Source of the DNA: Cellulomonas terrae
GTDB taxonomy: Bacteria; Actinomycetota; Actinomycetes; Actinomycetales; Cellulomonadaceae
Direction of reading: 5' to 3'
NCBI RefSeq assembly: GCF_007990265.1
Contig: NZ_BJWH01000018.1
Coordinates: forward strand, 1-64,000
Length of the DNA: 64,000 bases
Part shown: positions 6,968-62,972 of the stretch, one piece after another
How positions within the stretch are numbered: the first letter of the stretch is position 1
Layout of the letters: every line of letters starts with the position of its first letter
Notes under the pieces: model-generated
Told to the model about the DNA's origin: nothing
What the model saw: only the letters and a program-made list of their open reading frames with translations
The model's database searches: none
Made by a program: the position numbers and the translations under genes

Positions 6968-8137
6968 TCAGTCGCGAAGGGAGATCGCTACAGACGACAG
7001 GGTGTTCTCCGTGCTGCGGGCGGCAAGCGAAGCGAGGCGCTGTCCGTTCTCCAGCAGGATGGATCGCTCCCTCGTCAGAGCACGCTCGAGCGCGCTTTCC
7101 AGATGTGCGCCCTCTGAGATCGGCACATCGCCCCGAGCCCAGGTGTTGACGTAGGCCTCCAATTTCGATATGCCAGCCAGCGCAATGGACGGCACGCCGT
7201 ACGCCATTGCAGATATATGGCCGTGCAAGCTTGTTCCGACAAACACTTGGGAGCTGGAGATCGTGTCCGCAATATCCCATATCGAACTCACCGGCGTCAC
7301 CGAGACGGTATCTAGTCCGACTCGCCGCTCGACAGCGCGCATCGCTTCGACATCTCCATGCCCGCCGGCGAGCCCGATCGGCAACAGTTCGACGCGTTCA
7401 AATTGGCGAGCGGCCTCCCGAACGAAAGCCACCAGGCTCCGCCCGTCGCGCCGGAGCCAGCTCCTCGAACACTGGACTACCATCGATTCCCCTTGCTCCC
7501 GTCTGGGAGGGCGCAATTCCGCGAGAACGGCGACGCTGTCCGGTGCGAGCGTCGCACCAATTCCCACCTCTCGCAGGCGTTCGAGACCGACTTCGTCGCG
7601 CACGCTCACGTAAGATGCTCTTTGCAGTGTCGATACAACGCTCTGACGATATTCGGCGGGGAGCCGGTCGAGCGAAGATGCACCGATTGCATTTGTAGAG
7701 AGCCGCTGCTGCCCACCGATCTGCGGAATGAACGGGGACCTTGTACGACCTCCGGCTCGCCGCATGGCGAACCCATCAAGCGCCCGCCCAGCCACCTTGT
7801 TGATGGCGAGCGCGCCAAGGTCCCAGGGGCTCTTCATCTGGGAGATGAGCGCCTCTCCCCAGCGCGCACCGAGAACCTCTCCCCCACCGATGACGATTCC
7901 GCGCATTGACGCGAATTCTTGAGACCCTATCGAACCGCACGAAAATCCTGCCGCACTGGACATGTCAGCGGCTCGAACGGAAAAGTGCGCCAACGGCGCT
8001 AGGCCCAGCTTCGAGGCCGCCGAGTCCAGAACCAGCGGAAACAGCAGGTCTCCATAATTAAATCGATCGTAAGCTCCGACTGTCGCAATTAGATCGTCTT
8101 GCGGATAGTGGCCCACTTTACTTCCCGTCCGTCGCAT
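6968..8137 (-). CDS. Polysaccharide pyruvyl transferase family protein
   Basis: The product is a 389-residue protein. The late motif VFVGTSLHGHISAMAYGVPSIAL (about residues 310-332) is diagnostic of the CsaB/WcaK-like family, and the N-terminus has the NYGD element (about 27-30). Family members add ketal pyruvate to sugars from phosphoenolpyruvate, giving the polymer negative charge. Some members are poorly characterised. Six bases separate it from the flippase gene and about 30 from the ligase gene, so it belongs to the same operon. It shares their lower G+C. Confidence 0.8.
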   Translation of the reverse strand: MRRTGSKVGHYPQDDLIATVGAYDRFNYGDLLFPLVLDSAASKLGLAPLAHFSVRAADMSSAAGFSCGSIGSQEFASMRGIVIGGGEVLGARWGEALISQMKSPWDLGALAINKVAGRALDGFAMRRAGGRTRSPFIPQIGGQQRLSTNAIGASSLDRLPAEYRQSVVSTLQRASYVSVRDEVGLERLREVGIGATLAPDSVAVLAELRPPRREQGESMVVQCSRSWLRRDGRSLVAFVREAARQFERVELLPIGLAGGHGDVEAMRAVERRVGLDTVSVTPVSSIWDIADTISSSQVFVGTSLHGHISAMAYGVPSIALAGISKLEAYVNTWARGDVPISEGAHLESALERALTRERSILLENGQRLASLAARSTENTLSSVAISLRD

Positions 8138-8166
8138 CCTGAGCAGAAATAGGTCCGAAGCGGAGA

Positions 8167-9552
8167 TTATGTCTCTTCGCGCCGCGCTCGTATATTTTGA
8201 GATACATCCACTTCTCGCGCGGATCTACCAGCATCGAAAGTGGTTCCCGCGATCCAGAGGAGCGAGATCACAAACCAGAAGATCGGATCCATGATGCTCT
8301 GATAGAAGACTCCAAACGCGACCGTCGCCAGTGCCAGCCATCGTCGAGCGCTCAGCGTCGGAGCGACTACTAGTATGAGGATGACAACCAAGCCGACGAT
8401 CCCCATCTCCACCAGTGCAGTGAGGTAGAGGGAGTGAAAGTTTCCGTAGGTTGACCCAGCGAAGACTTCCGCGACCTCGAGGTAGGACCGTCCGAAACCG
8501 GCGCCTACCCACGGTTGCATCGGACCCGCAGCTATGGACTCGGCAGCGATCCGATACAGGCTAAGGTGTTCCCCACCTGATGTTCCCTCGCTCAAGTCGA
8601 GTCGGTTTGTGACCAAGGCGAGGTCGATTGCTCCATTTGCGGAGATGATTCGTGCAACGACGAAGACCACCGTGACCGAGGCAAACATCAGAGCGCCGGC
8701 AACGCGGCGACGTTGCCGCCCCCGAGGTGCTTGAACGACGGCACCGATAGCGCAAATTAGCCAAGCTATTGCTCCACTTCGCGAGACCGATGCCACTACG
8801 ATTAGCCCCGACCCAAAGAGGGCAGCCAATGAAACCACGGCCATCCGAAAGCGGCTCGTCAATGGTTCGAGGACGACGAGGTGAACCGCAACCGCAGCCG
8901 TGAACGCTCCACGATTTGGGTCCAACGAGAGCCCGGAGAGGCGCGGTATGTCCTGCCCGATAGACCCAGCCGTAATGTCGATTGGCCCGAGCAGTACTGC
9001 GTGCCCGGTACCGAATCGCAGCCATGAGAAGAGGCTGAGAGTGTCGAGTACAAGGCTTCCTGCAATCAGCCCCCATCCAGCTGCACGCAACGTCCACGCC
9101 GTATCGACCGTCAGGGCTAGCCAGACGATGGATGCAGCGCTCACAACGAGAGCGAGCAGGAGCAGCACCCGTCCGGTCGACAATCCGTCTCCGCCGATGG
9201 CCATGACGGAGATCATGGCCAGCACGATAAACCCAGCCATTAGAAAGACGCCAGATCTTGCGTCCCGAGATATCGGGTTTGCGCGGTGCCCGCTCAATGC
9301 GCGAACAACCATGACTGTCATGATGCACGGAATCAGGGCGATGTACGGTGTGATCACCAGCGGGGCACCGCCTCGCGCCAGATCTATCCGGTCGGTGGCC
9401 GCCGCGACCACGCATACTGCGATAAACGCTTCCAGCGCTCGCGAACCGCGAAGCCTGCCTCTGGTGGTGGTGAACGGTGTCGAGGAACCCGTTCGGGGCA
9501 CGCTGGCTGTGCTAGCGGAGGACTGGCGATCAAAGCGTGAATCGGGATTCAC
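8167..9552 (-). CDS. O-antigen ligase/polymerase-like membrane protein
   Basis: The product is a membrane protein of about 461 residues with 11-12 hydrophobic segments and the Wzy_C/O-antigen ligase signature. The large periplasmic loop contains WVGAGFGRSYLEVAE and a following FHSLYLTALVEMGIVGLV, where the histidine is the conserved ligase/polymerase residue. It probably polymerises or transfers the exported repeat units. GTG 9552 was chosen because GGAGG lies seven bases before it. The frame is open for about 70 further codons upstream but overlaps the GT2 gene. Sequence composition is A+T-rich for this genome. Confidence 0.82.
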   Translation of the reverse strand: MNPDSRFDRQSSASTASVPRTGSSTPFTTTRGRLRGSRALEAFIAVCVVAAATDRIDLARGGAPLVITPYIALIPCIMTVMVVRALSGHRANPISRDARSGVFLMAGFIVLAMISVMAIGGDGLSTGRVLLLLALVVSAASIVWLALTVDTAWTLRAAGWGLIAGSLVLDTLSLFSWLRFGTGHAVLLGPIDITAGSIGQDIPRLSGLSLDPNRGAFTAAVAVHLVVLEPLTSRFRMAVVSLAALFGSGLIVVASVSRSGAIAWLICAIGAVVQAPRGRQRRRVAGALMFASVTVVFVVARIISANGAIDLALVTNRLDLSEGTSGGEHLSLYRIAAESIAAGPMQPWVGAGFGRSYLEVAEVFAGSTYGNFHSLYLTALVEMGIVGLVVILILVVAPTLSARRWLALATVAFGVFYQSIMDPIFWFVISLLWIAGTTFDAGRSAREVDVSQNIRARREET

Positions 9553-56570: not shown

Positions 56571-56670
56571 GCGCACTCCTCGACGTCCGGTGCCGAGCGC
56601 TCCGCCGGCGCCCGGTGCGCGAGAGCCTAGTGTCCGCGTTCGGGCTCCGACCAGGGCCGATAGGGGTCCG

Positions 56671-57264
56671 TCAGGCCTCGGGATCGCTGACCAGGAGCAC
56701 CGTGATCCCGGGCTCGTCGGCGGCCTGCAGGGTGACCGTGGTCAGGCCGAGGGTCTGCGCGACGAGGTCCGCGGTGGGCTTGAGATCCTCCGACGTGTAG
56801 AACACGGTCGACACGTCCTCGGTCGGGTCCGCGTTGCCCGTGTCGACGCTCGTGAAGCCCGCAGCCGTGAGCTTCTCCGCCTGGGCGGCGGCGAGGCCAC
56901 CGATGCTCGCCGCGTTGAGCACCATGACCGGCGTCTCCATCACGGGGGCCGGCGCGGCGGGCTCCTCCTCGACGGGCGTCGTCTCCGTGTCCGTCGGGGC
57001 CTCGCCCTCGGTCTCGGTGTCGGTCGGCGCCTCGTCCTCCGCGTCCGGCGAGCTCGACGTGCCCGGGAGGGACGGGAGGTTGCCGTCCTGTGCCGCGAGG
57101 TTCACCAGAGTGAACGCGAGGACCGGGAGCAGGGCCAGGACGACCAGGAACTTCCACCACCGGCTCCACACCGACCGGGGTGCGCGATGCACCCCGCGGG
57201 GGACGTCGGGGTTCGACGGGACGTCGAACTCGTCCTCGGGGTAGGAGTACTCCGCCTTGCTCAC
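56671..57264 (-). CDS. LytR_C-domain membrane protein
   Basis: The product is a 197-residue protein. One membrane helix (about 38-59) follows a cytoplasmic acidic N-terminus. A Thr/Glu-Pro linker (about 65-105, with two direct TETE-like repeats) precedes a C-terminal LytR_C fold (about 110-195, [26 protein letters not shown]). This domain is found at the end of LCP ligases and in stand-alone envelope proteins. It probably acts at the cell wall. The GTG start is 57264. It follows the DUF3263 gene by about 110 bases. Confidence 0.85.
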
Positions 57265-59349: not shown

Positions 59350-59919
59350 TCAGGGGCAGCTGTAGACGAGGTTGCCGGAGCTTCCGGTGTTGCTGCCGAC
59401 GAAGTCGAGCACCACCGGGTTGCCCGCACTGATCGTGGCCTTGCCCCAGTCGGCCCGGCCGGTGAACGTCACCACGCGGGTGGACGCCGAGCAGAAGCCC
59501 GGGGGCAGCGGAGCGATCACCGCGCCGCCCGAGTACTCCCCGACCCGCTTCACCGCCGGTGCGAAGGGGGCTGCGGCGAAGTCGATCGTCAGCTTCCAGT
59601 ACACGGGGGTGGTGCTCGACGTGGAGACGGTCGCCTTGATGTTCCAGTCGGCGCTGCCGTCGGTGTCGGGTCCGAAGGCCACCTGGCACGTCGGCCCGGG
59701 GATCGGGTTGCCGGCTGAGTCGGTGACCACGCAGCCGACACCCGCGGCCGACCAGGTCCCGCTCGATGCGGCCGCGGCAGCCCGGGCGCCGTTGGTCCAC
59801 GCGGCGGACGTCGCACCGATCGCGGACGTCCCGGCGGTGACGGCCAGCATCGATGCGGCCGCCACGGCGACGACCAGGGACGTTCGGCGAGCACGGCCGA
59901 GGGTCAGGGCGCCGATCAC
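59350..59919 (-). CDS. SipW-type secreted protein, last gene of the surface operon
   Basis: The product is a 189-residue protein. After a basic start and hydrophobic segment (about 10-35) comes GATSAAWTNGARAAAAAS, which shares the A-x-W-T-(D/N) motif of the operon's other exported proteins. Such signals are processed by SipW-type peptidases. The body is beta-rich with three or four cysteines and ends NLVYSCP. The GTG start overlaps the lectin stop (GTGA). The beta-rich build and context suggest a minor fibre or matrix subunit. I do not recognise a named family. Confidence 0.75.
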   Translation of the reverse strand: MIGALTLGRARRTSLVVAVAAASMLAVTAGTSAIGATSAAWTNGARAAAAASSGTWSAAGVGCVVTDSAGNPIPGPTCQVAFGPDTDGSADWNIKATVSTSSTTPVYWKLTIDFAAAPFAPAVKRVGEYSGGAVIAPLPPGFCSASTRVVTFTGRADWGKATISAGNPVVLDFVGSNTGSSGNLVYSCP

Positions 59920-60557
59920 GGGAACGGTGGGGTGCCGTAGGGCTCGATCCGCCACGAGCTGCCGTAGCCGGAGGCGCCGCAGGCGCGCATCGTGAGCGGG
60001 GTGGGGTCGGTGCCGGGCGGCGGCGTCTGCCAGCTCAGGCACCGGTCGCCGGTCGCCGGGTTGGTCCCCTGCTGGTTGCGGATCTGCACCGTGCCGTCGG
60101 CGTTGGCGACGAACCGCCACCGGAAGTTCCCGGTCATGTTCCCGGGGCAGGCCATCAGGTAGACGGTCGCGCCGTTGGTGTTGCCCGACGTCTGCATGCA
60201 GCGGACGCCCGTGACGCCGTTGTCGCCCGGGTCCTCGCGGAAGGCCTCGATGCGTCCGGCCGTCGTGAGCCACCACTTCTGCGCCGGCGTGTTGTTGCAC
60301 GAGTAGAGCCGGATGGACGTGTTGTTCGCGTTCTGCCGGCTCTCGATGTCGAGGCACTTGTCGCCCGGGCCGCGGGCCTGGAACTCCTCTCCCGACATGA
60401 TGCCCGAGGAGGACGCCGCGGCCCGGGCGTCGTTGGTCCACGCCGCGGTCGTCGTCCCGACCGCCTGGACCAGCCCGACCATCGCCACCAGGGCGAGGAG
60501 CAGCACAGCGCGACGTCCACGACGTGCGCTGTGCTGGGTCGGGCCGGGACCGGTCAC
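59916..60557 (-). CDS. Ricin-type lectin with SipW-type signal
   Basis: The product is a 213-residue protein. A signal segment (about 17-35) leads to GTTTAAWTNDARAAAS, the shared processing motif. Then a beta-trefoil ricin-type lectin (about 55-210) appears, with QNANNTSIRLYSCNNTPAQKWWL (a QxW repeat), RCMQTSGNTNGATVYLMACPG and RCLSW later. It should bind carbohydrate at the surface. The GTG start overlaps the upstream gene by four bases. A lectin in such an operon is unusual, and it may link a fibre to polysaccharide. Confidence 0.8.
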   Translation of the reverse strand: MTGPGPTQHSARRGRRAVLLLALVAMVGLVQAVGTTTAAWTNDARAAASSSGIMSGEEFQARGPGDKCLDIESRQNANNTSIRLYSCNNTPAQKWWLTTAGRIEAFREDPGDNGVTGVRCMQTSGNTNGATVYLMACPGNMTGNFRWRFVANADGTVQIRNQQGTNPATGDRCLSWQTPPPGTDPTPLTMRACGASGYGSSWRIEPYGTPPFP

Positions 60558-61144
60558 GCGCAGGCGCCCGTGCTGGTGGACGCGGCGACGGTCGTACCGG
60601 TGTAGGCGATCTTCAACGCGGTGGCCGACGTCTGGTTCTGGTGGGTCGTCGACCAGGTGGTCGGGGTCGTCACGGTGACGGTGACGGCCTGGACGGCGCC
60701 GGCGGCCATGTTCCCGATCGCGCTCGTCGACAGCGTCACGCTGGCGTCGTTCGCGCCCACGCCCGCCAGCGGCTCGGCCTTCGTGATCGTCGGCGCGGGG
60801 ACGTTCAGGCACGTGGAGCTGCTGTTCTTGACCCAGTACGTGGCCGTGCGCGTCTGGCCGGGGACCAGCAGGGAGAACGTGGTGCCCGCGAACGTGATGC
60901 CCGTCGCGTCGGTGTCCGCGGCCGACCACGGCCCCGTCGCCGAGGCGGCCGAGCCGTCGAGCAGGACGCTCGCGCTGCTCGAGCTCGCGTTGAACCAGGC
61001 GTCGTTGGTCCAGTTGGCCGAGGTGGCGGCCGCGCCGATGCCGAGCAGCGCGAGACCGGCCAGGCCGAAGCGGACCGCGACTCCCTTGCGGCGGCGACGA
61101 CGGTTCGTGGGGGGTGCCGCGGCACCCTCGGTGGTGGTGTCCAT
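60554..61144 (-). CDS. SipW-type secreted protein, TasA-like
   Basis: The product is a 196-residue protein. The N-terminus is basic (NRRRRRKG), followed by a hydrophobic segment and GAAATSANWTNDAWFNAS, which nearly repeats the start of the protein at 62340-62972. The mature part (about 45-196) is Ser/Thr-rich and beta-predicted, and it closes with a cysteine. It resembles TasA/camelysin-like exported fibre proteins in its build, but the homology is not provable by eye. The ATG is 61144. Confidence 0.78.
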   Translation of the reverse strand: MDTTTEGAAAPPTNRRRRRKGVAVRFGLAGLALLGIGAAATSANWTNDAWFNASSSSASVLLDGSAASATGPWSAADTDATGITFAGTTFSLLVPGQTRTATYWVKNSSSTCLNVPAPTITKAEPLAGVGANDASVTLSTSAIGNMAAGAVQAVTVTVTTPTTWSTTHQNQTSATALKIAYTGTTVAASTSTGACA

Positions 61145-61189
61145 GATGTCGGTCCTTCCGGTGGGTCTGAGGTCGTGGGGGGTTCGAGG

Positions 61190-61744
61190 TCAGGCGGTGG
61201 CGTCGGGCGTCGCGGCTCGGTCGTCGTCACGCCGCCGTCGTGCGACCAGCACGAGGAGCAGGCCGAGCGCGGTCATGGCGAGCGCGGCGAGCGAGACCGG
61301 CCAGGTGTCCGAACCGGTGTGCGCGAGGTTCCCGGTGCCGGCCTCGACGAGCGACAGGCGCCCCTCGATGGCGCTGACGTCACCGGGCAGCAGGCTCGTC
61401 GCTGTGACGCCGACCCGGAGGTCGTAGTCGCCCGCGGCGAGGTCCTGGCCGGCACGCATCGCCAGGACGTCGGTGCACGTCCCCTGCCGGCAGAGCAGGG
61501 CCGTCCAGGTCGCGCCCGGCGTGGTGACGGACGTCACGGACACGACGCGAGCGTCGCGGTCGAGCCGGTACGTACGCGACTGCGTCTGGCTCTCGCCGGG
61601 GTACAGCCCGGCGAACTCGAACGTGAGCGGGACGCTCCTCGGAGCTGCTCCTGCGGCGCTGGCGCCGAGCACCGCCCCGGCCGCCGTGAGCACGACCGCC
61701 AGGATCATGCTCGCGACGCCGGCCGCTCCGAGTCGCCTGGTCAT
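61190..61744 (-). CDS. Wall-anchored protein with LAHTGSD sorting signal
   Basis: The product is a 184-residue protein. The signal peptide is about 1-32. The beta-rich domain has two cysteines (LLCRQGTCTD). The C-terminus is NLAHTGSD, then a hydrophobic helix and RRRRDDD, which is the actinobacterial LAXTG-type sortase (often class E) motif. It could fix the operon's other products to the wall. The ATG at 61744 overlaps the sipW stop (ATGA). No sortase gene is in the window. Confidence 0.8.
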   Translation of the reverse strand: MTRRLGAAGVASMILAVVLTAAGAVLGASAAGAAPRSVPLTFEFAGLYPGESQTQSRTYRLDRDARVVSVTSVTTPGATWTALLCRQGTCTDVLAMRAGQDLAAGDYDLRVGVTATSLLPGDVSAIEGRLSLVEAGTGNLAHTGSDTWPVSLAALAMTALGLLLVLVARRRRDDDRAATPDATA

Positions 61745-62277
61745 CGCGTCACGGCGCCCTCGAGCACGGGGGTGGGCACGTCGTCGTCGTCCTCCGGCCG
61801 GGGAAGGACGGTCAGGCCGATGAGCGCGAGGATCGTGACCGCGATCGGCACCACGACCGACCTGTTGGTCATCGTGGCGATGACGTTGCCGCCGCCGGTG
61901 ACCTGGACGGCCGGCGTCCACACACGGTCCCCGACGACGTAGGCGCCGCCGTCCTCGCTGGCGTTGGCGTCACCCTTCATCCGGATCTCCCAGGTGGATC
62001 CGCCCATCGGCTCGATGGACACGATCCGGTGGGTGACCAGGTTCTGGGTGATCGGGTTGAAGATCGACGCGACGTCCCCGACCCGCAGGTCGGAGGTCGG
62101 CGTCGGCACGTCCACCAGCAGGTCCCGCGTCATGATCCCGGGCTCCATCGAGCCGGAGATCACGACGAGGGGCTGGATGTACCCGAGCTTCGTCGCGCCC
62201 CAGACGAGGACGCTCGCGAGCCCGAGCACAGCCAGGAGCCACAGGACGGCGTTGCCGAGTCCTCGAAGGACGCGCAT
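61741..62277 (-). CDS. sipW: Signal peptidase I, SipW/ER-type
   Basis: The product is a 178-residue membrane peptidase. The catalytic serine is Ser43 in ISGSMEPG. The base is His83 (NLVTHRIV), not the lysine of bacterial Lep enzymes, and a conserved Asp lies in KGDANASED (about 103). This is the archaeal/ER/SipW class that in Bacillus matures TasA. Membrane helices are at about 10-30 and 140-160. ATG 62277 has GGAG upstream. It lies inside an operon of exported proteins with SipW-type starts, which are its likely substrates. Confidence 0.9.
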   Translation of the reverse strand: MRVLRGLGNAVLWLLAVLGLASVLVWGATKLGYIQPLVVISGSMEPGIMTRDLLVDVPTPTSDLRVGDVASIFNPITQNLVTHRIVSIEPMGGSTWEIRMKGDANASEDGGAYVVGDRVWTPAVQVTGGGNVIATMTNRSVVVPIAVTILALIGLTVLPRPEDDDDVPTPVLEGAVTR

Positions 62278-62298
62278 GGTTTCTCCAGCCAGGTTCGT

Positions 62299-62332
62299 GG
62301 AGGTGCCGCCGCGCTGAGGCGGCGGCACCTCC
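62299..62332 (-). terminator. Perfect intraoperonic hairpin after the TasA-like gene
   Basis: A 14-base-pair perfect stem (GGAGGTGCCGCCGC and its complement) with a six-base loop lies 7 bases beyond the TasA-like stop and before sipW. It may keep the major subunit message abundant and reduce sipW expression. Confidence 0.65.
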
Positions 62333-62339
62333 GACGAGG

Positions 62340-62972
62340 TCACGGGGTCGGGACGGTGGCGCCCTGGAACTGGAGGGTGACGTCGACCGTCGAGCCCTGG
62401 GCGGCCGGCGTCCAGTTGGCCGGCGTGGTGATCGTCAGCGGCACGACGGTCTCGCCGTCCGCCTCGAGCGGCGTCGTGGCGGTGCCGACGCTCACGACGG
62501 CGTGGGTGTCGTCGCCGGTGCCGGTCGTGTAGTAGTCCGAGTTCGACAGCGTGAGGGTCGGGTTCGTGATCGCGAGCGACGACGTGCCCGCGTTCAGGAG
62601 GTGGACGTAGACGACGCGCTCCTCGCCCGGGACCAGCGGCTCGTTGGCGGCTGCGAGCAGGTCGAAGTCGAACGACACGAAGTCCGTCGCGCCCGAGGCG
62701 CCCGGGTTCTGGTCTGCGGTGTCCCAGCCGCCGTCCAGCGGGTCGGCGATCAGGGTGCCGGTCGCGGTGACCTGGCCCATGAGCTCGATCGTCGCGGCGT
62801 TCGCGGTGCCGCGGAACCAGGCGTCGTCGGTCCAGGCGGCGGACGTGGCCGCAGCGCCGATGCCGGCGAGGGCCGCACCGACGAGGCCGAACTTGACGAC
62901 AGCGGCGCGCTTGCGCTTCTTGCGGTCGGTGTCCTGCGCGGTGGCGTCGTGCGTGACGGTCGTGGAAGCCAT
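62340..62972 (-). CDS. TasA-like SipW-dependent secreted protein
   Basis: The product is a 210-residue protein, the first gene of the operon. A basic start (DRKKRKRAAVVKFG), hydrophobic segment and GIGAAATSAAWTDDAWFRGT form the SipW-type export region. The mature protein (about 48-210) is acidic, lacks cysteine and is beta-predicted, with LVPGEERVVYVHLLNAGTSSL typical of TasA/camelysin-like proteins. This sort of protein forms fibres or biofilm matrix. The ATG is 62972, with AGGAG upstream. The hairpin after its stop and first place fit a major subunit. Confidence 0.82.
   Translation of the reverse strand: MASTTVTHDATAQDTDRKKRKRAAVVKFGLVGAALAGIGAAATSAAWTDDAWFRGTANAATIELMGQVTATGTLIADPLDGGWDTADQNPGASGATDFVSFDFDLLAAANEPLVPGEERVVYVHLLNAGTSSLAITNPTLTLSNSDYYTTGTGDDTHAVVSVGTATTPLEADGETVVPLTITTPANWTPAAQGSTVDVTLQFQGATVPTP

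Follow-up and report, generated by a model that had tools for sequence, protein, structure and literature searches.

A SipW-type operon of an actinobacterium whose four exported proteins share an N-terminal block: a possible mixed-subunit surface fibre

Most of what is known about SipW-TasA fibres comes from Bacillus, where they serve as biofilm scaffolds. A 64,000-nucleotide stretch of actinobacterial DNA (contig NZ_BJWH01000018.1 of assembly GCF_007990265.1, positions 1 to 64,000, hereafter the window) raises the question of what a peptidase of the SipW type does in an operon with four exported proteins that begin alike, one of them a lectin. The organism is most likely of the genus Cellulomonas, and the named organism closest to it is Cellulomonas sp. 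Leaf334 (G024 in our numbering, in which the genome of the window, 4,309,330 bases long, is G000). Six minus-strand genes, running from 62972 to 59350, form one tightly packed operon encoding, in this order, an exported protein that we call TasA1, a SipW/Sec11-type signal peptidase, an LAHTG-tailed protein, a second TasA1-type subunit (TasA2), the lectin and a last motif-bearing protein, Sub4. An original prediction made from the window had proposed a wall-linked fibre or matrix system with a carbohydrate-binding subunit. We see about an even chance that the operon encodes a mixed-subunit surface fibre built on the TasA principle.

The four exported proteins share a short block behind their hydrophobic start. 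As predicted, it reads ATSAAWTDDA in TasA1 (62340..62972, minus strand, 210 aa), the first of them in the operon, ATSANWTNDA in TasA2 (60554..61144, minus strand, 196 aa), TTTAAWTNDA in the lectin (59916..60557, minus strand, 213 aa, GTG start) and ATSAAWTNGA in Sub4 (59350..59919, minus strand, 189 aa, GTG start). When the core A-A-W-T-[DN]-[ADEG]-A was searched across the 4,309,330 bases of the genome as a degenerate DNA pattern, all three matches lay within the operon (the SANWTNDA of TasA2 falls outside this pattern, hence three matches for four proteins), and a reversed control pattern had none. The motif is thus not a matter of chance. The original prediction had also staked itself on orthologues keeping the motif, and they do. 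We examined 24 same-genus operons from 23 genomes (G025 has two). After a hydrophobic stretch, 45 of the 46 genes downstream of SipW and of the gene of the LAHTG-tailed protein (the anchor gene below) carry T-x-[AGS]-x-W-x-[DNGS]; the genes were called without reference to the motif, the exceptions were inspected, and the count, made by hand, excludes same-strand genes farther down in G032, G091, G095 and G082. The strict pattern is present in 41 genes and a variant in four (TSAAWQD, TSGAWTD, TAAAWQD, TSSAWTD), and the motif is missing from one, in G009. This exception is a Sub4-like frame (L040, oriented 7869-8294) without start region, signal or motif, and it may be a decayed gene or an assembly error.

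Does the block do more than mark a cleavage site? The T-x-A-x-W-T region of the original prediction is confirmed in all four proteins, but what they share runs beyond the expected cut. Counted from this cut, pooled conservation across the aligned motif proteins is complete for W at +2 and D/N at +4 (64/64 each), amounts to 56/64 for A at +6, 46/64 for A at +10 and 45/64 for A at +12, and drops past about +17; Sub4 has G-T-W at +15 to +17. The alignment sets were chosen by a pattern that required T at -3, A at -1, either W or F at +2 and one of a small choice of residues at both +3 and +4. T and A are therefore invariant by construction, whereas W over F, and D/N at +4 where seven residues were allowed, were free to vary. 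Gene starts in the relatives were set by script, and rows were omitted for TasA1 of G026 (on another contig) and G088 (a run of N), TasA2 of G032, Sub4 of G058 and G091, and a lectin fusion of G023. The profiles of Sub4 and TasA1 align in the N-terminal region only (38 columns), as do those of Sub4 and the lectin (50 columns), in both cases through 16-19 residues past the cut. Lectin and TasA2 align over 68 columns of the N-terminal region, the later part weakly. This N-terminal-only alignment past the cut, the internal tail of the G023 fusion and the tail DNA kept relative to G024 (the last two described below) suggest a role for the block beyond cleavage: it is probably the cleavage site plus the start of a donor strand, that is, of the joint between subunits. 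The proposed donor strand is the N-terminal tail of mature TasA1, AWTDDAWFRGTANAATI (62787..62837, minus strand), placed by the pooled conservation and starting at the expected cleavage point.

The model for such a joint comes from Bacillus subtilis. According to passages of two papers (PMC9674648, PMC10151520), mature TasA starts at residue 28; its N-terminus is AFNDI and that of TapA is AFHDI; the stretch 28-38 of TasA is a strand inserted into the next subunit, with F29 in contact; and TapA is confined to the start of the filament, its own fold being complete. The window proteins have T-x-A followed by (A/N)-W-T-(D/N) at the position equivalent to the TasA/TapA block given in those passages. 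AlphaFold gives the 13 N-terminal residues of mature TasA1 a pLDDT below 50, as expected for a strand without its partner, which taken alone is weak proof.

The peptidase (61741..62277, minus strand, 178 aa) is of the endoplasmic reticulum (ER) type, as originally proposed. It scores 56.8 bits against TIGR02228 (ER/archaeal-type signal peptidase I; cut-off 51.85), and the predicted residues Ser43, His83 and Asp103 (given as about 103) are, together with Asp109, invariant across 23 aligned SipW proteins. We take Ser and His to be the catalytic residues, in place of a Ser-Lys pair. Searched with a profile of the 23 orthologues, the PDB returned SEC11A/C of the ER signal peptidase as the sole matches at E 0.01; the score against the Bacillus SipW equivalog NF046067 is 38.5 bits, below its cut-off of 190. 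The genome of the window has two further SipW-type genes, both on its contig C1, at about 305 kb (L047) and about 424 kb (L048). Neighbouring proteins carry the blocks AAYGAWSQ and TMAAWRVS at L047 and TSAIFTDN and TSAQFTDS at L048, and one of the two loci has an LAHTG-tailed neighbour of its own. Other blocks at other SipW loci would fit dedicated peptidase-substrate pairs.

What follows the tail varies. In the lectin, signal and tail are followed by a ricin-type beta-trefoil, borne out by PF00652 (47.5 bits, cut-off 29, E 2.5e-12) and PF14200 (2.3e-9). The CLD and QxW of the alpha repeat are kept in all five aligned lectins, the nearest PDB relatives are beta-trefoil binding modules of xylanases, and sugar binding is predicted from the family. 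The slot is occupied in six of the 24 same-genus operons (G000, G024, G023, G058, G063, G072). At E 1e-20, a whole-lectin profile matched four of the 396 genomes sampled across the order. All four belong to the same genus, and one (G077) matches over the lectin part only; among these 396 genomes no such lectin was found outside the genus. The G023 fusion is one protein of 363 aa (L032:5953-7041, minus strand) with a TasA2-like domain (hhalign 98.9%, E 2.6e-17) and then the lectin (PF00652, 6.1e-19). The lectin is immediately preceded by STWVNPAWFRGEISLGTW, which matches the tail in register as far as G-T-W (+15 to +17) and has no signal ahead of it. G348 belongs to another genus of the family, and in its terminal protein (L159:6836-8149, plus strand) RCC1 repeats (PF00415 2.6e-41, PF25390 9.7e-61) come after the signal and tail. 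Together with the window lectin, this makes at least two unrelated binding-type folds that stand behind the tail. In other genera, the terminal proteins (L154:6784-7668, L157:6550-7473, L151:6381-7250, L152:3904-4947) have the tail, a glycine-rich linker and repeated domains without a Pfam match. Sub4 has a mean column identity of 23% across 21 relatives, with T, A and W of the block invariant (T and A partly by selection); its structure model (pLDDT 45) was unusable for a fold search. Neither Sub4 nor TasA2 had a family match in scans with NCBIfam and Pfam-type models. Mature cysteines, mostly stable by position, number none in TasA1, two in TasA2, six in the lectin and four (sometimes two) in Sub4.

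TasA1 and TasA2 are homologous (hhalign E 6e-46, 173 columns), and TasA1 is likely the major subunit. Its model has a beta-sandwich body (AlphaFold, pLDDT 74) with a weak likeness to the TasA fibre 8aur (Z 5.5, rank 41, 118 residues, model 4-165 to chain 32-236). Between TasA1 and SipW lies an inverted repeat (62299..62332, minus strand) with perfect 14-bp arms (62299-62312 and 62319-62332) and a 6-nt loop, which folds at -39.3 kcal/mol (z -5.4; none of 200 shuffles was as stable). The same gap in relatives of the genus reaches z -2 or lower in 13 of 19 foldable cases (60 shuffles each), and perfect stems of at least 10 bp, differing in sequence, occur in 11; four control gaps between anchor gene and TasA2 have no hairpin (z 0.3 to 1.3). 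As a known RNA element or terminator the hairpin found no support, with no Rfam match and no T-run after the stem. Outside the genus, seven gaps were foldable (a further four were overlapping or too short to fold, and the set did not include G314 and G348), with stems of 15 bp in G318 and 11 bp in G338 and, in the other five, 2-3 bp, which amounts to none. A stem that recurs behind the first gene without a fixed sequence would fit a device that raises TasA1 above the rest, and such a device would support TasA1 as the major subunit.

The LAHTG-tailed protein (61190..61744, minus strand, 184 aa) is the likely wall anchor, as judged from its tail. The wall-sorting tail claimed for it passes TIGR01167 (18.1 bits, cut-off 15.9) but not Pfam PF00746 (13.9, cut-off 20), and its signal is LAHTG, not LPXTG. 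The export signal looks ordinary and lacks the W motif. Among the 23 same-genus genomes the anchor gene was recognised in 19, which were aligned, with LAxTG in 16 and without it in three. The genome has three sortase genes, none of them inside the operon. The idea that this protein is a TasA-like acceptor-only base, which would set the polarity of the fibre, was dropped after profile comparison (1.7% and 2.1%).

How widespread is this arrangement? TasA1 has matches in 30 of 81 same-genus genomes and the operon is present in 23. Seven weak matches (G015, G017, G018, G062, G079, G093, G098) are excluded from the operon count; longer surrounding sequence was taken for G015, G018 and G079. In the gene-order comparison that the original prediction asked for, the lectin slot proved optional and the anchor gene not universal. 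Across the order, the TasA1 profile matched 72 of the 396 sampled genomes, which come from 19 of the 109 genera; many of these matches are weak. We compared 13 loci outside the genus, 11 from stronger matches plus Rarobacter and Demequina (Demequina and G264 are probably one genome). Eleven have the order TasA1, SipW and a terminal gene with this type of signal and tail (in G338 with A for T), and nine have a recognisable anchor-type gene. In G314, two TasA1-type genes with F for W precede SipW, and the terminal gene was not found; in G348 the order is TasA1, an LATTG-tailed gene, the terminal RCC1 gene and SipW. In the window, 4-base overlaps join SipW to the anchor gene, TasA2 to the lectin and the lectin to Sub4, leaving gaps of 62 bases between TasA1 and SipW and 45 bases between the anchor gene and TasA2. 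A histidine-kinase-type gene (PF02518; 63202-64000, minus strand), which has an equivalent position in several relatives, lies 229 bases upstream of TasA1 and may be a regulator of the operon. A convergent GDSL hydrolase gene lies downstream.

The comparison with G024 separates the joint from the subunit body. Along some 11 kb, the two genomes agree at about 90% of DNA positions, and from about 62792 to 61801 identity falls to 59-77%, with gaps. This diverged segment (61801..62792, minus strand) takes in the TasA1 body and nearly all of SipW, its edges are sharp, and the DNA of the tail is kept up to about 62793 while the body behind it has diverged. Protein identity is 42% for mature TasA1, 66% for SipW and 78% for the TasA1 signal, against 88-96% for seven other genes. 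G003 and G019 (L042 and L041) form another close pair, in which Sub4 is the divergent gene (protein 34%, DNA 51-61%), with flanks mostly at 88-97%. TasA1 is present twice in tandem in G003. We read the diverged segment as an allele replacement by recombination, in which the TasA1 body and SipW would have been replaced and the joint held constant. If bodies are exchanged while the joint is held, selection may be acting at the cell surface, with phage as a speculative agent.

These observations would fit together as follows. An export block is common to the four proteins, and the ER-type peptidase of the operon is the likely cutter at T-x-A|(A/N)-W. The freed N-terminus, (A/N)-W-T-(D/N), would then act as a donor strand that enters the groove of the next subunit. 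TasA1, made in excess by way of the hairpin, would form the shaft, with TasA2 as a minor subunit of the same type. Judging by its fold, the beta-trefoil of the lectin should not be able to take up a strand as TasA does, so the lectin would donate its strand and sit at a fibre end as a polysaccharide-binding tip; Sub4 would be a further end subunit or an adaptor. The LAHTG-tailed protein would link the system to the wall, and subunit bodies would be exchanged between strains with the joint fixed. The genus is one of degraders of plant matter, and with the xylanase-module relatives of the lectin this makes a fibre end that grips plant polysaccharide plausible.

Several results weigh against a fibre of this kind. 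The original prediction had suggested searching for TasA/camelysin and SipW-signal families, and these searches did not place the proteins in those families. TasA1 reaches 13.9 bits (residues 30-62) against the SipW-dependent-type signal model TIGR04088, below the cut-off of 19, and TasA2, the lectin and Sub4 do not match it; 15 of 23 TasA1 proteins match it at E up to 1. PDB searches with the TasA1 and TasA2 profiles gave no TasA chain up to E 10 and nothing significant. The Pfam matches of the 23 TasA1 proteins are weak and mixed Ig-like, with no camelysin family among the best 25 of 41 families. Among the 50 structural matches listed, the TasA fibre ranks beneath unrelated Ig-like folds (best Z 7.0), and the Foldseek match is weak (E 0.1); monomeric TasA is not in that list, which taken alone carries no weight. 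As TasA1 lacks a sequence link to TasA, we call it TasA-like in position and plan, not a member of the TasA family. In addition, no anchor gene was found in four of the 23 same-genus genomes, the LAHTG-tailed protein is not TasA-like by profile, six of the 19 foldable gaps (G002, G033, G010, G032, G003, G091) fall short of z -2, and SipW comes last in G348, so gene order is not fixed everywhere. Both the fibre and the cleavage are predictions.

The residues on the mature side could also serve peptidase recognition, and the block might then be nothing else, the four proteins acting separately, soluble or at the surface, without a polymer. We regard this explanation as rather unlikely. The strongest conservation (T-3, A-1, W+2, D/N+4) does surround the cut, a peptidase can read both sides, and the weak fold match to the TasA fibre, like the polymer being a prediction, would sit well with it. 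It leaves unaccounted for the conservation that reaches A+10, A+12 and the G-T-W of Sub4, far from the cut. The G023 fusion, a single case, keeps the whole tail inside a protein with no signal ahead of it, and the tail resembles the known donor strand as far as the Bacillus passages describe it. Copying would be another way to make N-termini alike: a signal region spread by duplication or gene conversion, whose mature part has no present function. The signal regions of the window lectin and the G024 Sub4 do agree at 79% of DNA positions over 63 bases. That the T, A and W of Sub4 stay invariant at so low a column identity (T and A partly by selection), that proteins with unrelated bodies retain the block in several genera, and that the tail is under strong constraint in many genomes, as pooled conservation indicates, all count against a copy-only origin, which we consider very improbable.

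For the diverged segment, the competing explanation is fast evolution of TasA1 and SipW in place, without exchange. TasA1 outpaces its neighbours in divergence in most close pairs compared, and smaller dips in identity occur elsewhere in the stretch (e.g., 75-76% at 56651-56950). In the SipW tree, G000 and G024 are still placed together (support 0.84), on long branches, a placement that also speaks against a distant donor. Against evolution in place stand the sharp edges and the 4-fold degenerate sites. These agree in 39 of 78 cases for SipW, which is saturation (47% expected), and in 26 of 40 for mature TasA1, compared with 69-88% for the seven other genes and 80-88% for the anchor, TasA2, lectin and Sub4 genes among them. 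The TasA1 tree puts the window allele with G023 (0.994) instead of G024, while the anchor tree joins G000 to G024 at 1.0. On this evidence we think evolution in place improbable and retain allele replacement.

How does the operon compare with known systems? It resembles tapA-sipW-tasA of Bacillus subtilis, as far as the passages cited above describe it, in a SipW-type peptidase beside its substrates, in the T-x-A|A-aromatic-x-D block (AFND in TasA, AFHD in TapA) and in a proposed donor-strand polymer with an end-only partner. It differs in that no TapA homologue was found here, in gene order, in Trp for Phe, in having four substrates that include a lectin, in the LAHTG-tailed protein, and in TasA1 having no sequence link to TasA. 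The Bacillus cereus operon sipW-calY1-bc_1280-calY2 (PMC10151520) pairs one SipW with two paralogous camelysin-type subunits, comparable to TasA1 and TasA2. The passage on it names neither a lectin nor a sortase tail, and its camelysins are unmatched by TasA1 among the Pfam families listed. The TIGR04088 model overlies the same stretch of TasA1, yet scores below its cut-off. Type 1 and P pili of the chaperone-usher kind are alike in working only, as donor-strand polymers with a sugar-binding end subunit, and we claim no homology; the operon has no chaperone or usher, and its lectin would donate a strand, not accept one. In open-access titles and the beginnings of abstracts, a scope outside which most subscription papers and bioRxiv fall and which makes the negative weak, we found neither a lectin in a SipW operon nor a SipW-TasA system in Cellulomonas. 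The novelty claimed originally therefore holds for the composition but not for the kind, as SipW with TasA-like substrates was already known.

Four new points have the best support: the shared N-terminus extends past the cut, TasA2 and the lectin occur fused, the terminal domain is interchangeable, and subunit bodies are exchanged. More tentatively, and at somewhat less than an even chance, we propose that this actinobacterial order has a chaperone-free, modular donor-strand fibre, in which a portable tag of SipW signal and strand would plug unrelated binding domains (lectin, RCC1, Sub4-type) into the end of a TasA-like shaft, and in which bodies would be swapped, once together with the peptidase, around an unchanging joint, making it a Gram-positive counterpart of pili with tip adhesins. 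If this is true, actinobacteria use the SipW-TasA principle to carry binding proteins as plug-in subunits, and a mixed fibre would be assembled by one peptidase and one N-terminal strand. The tail would then be a natural tag for attaching domains to such fibres.

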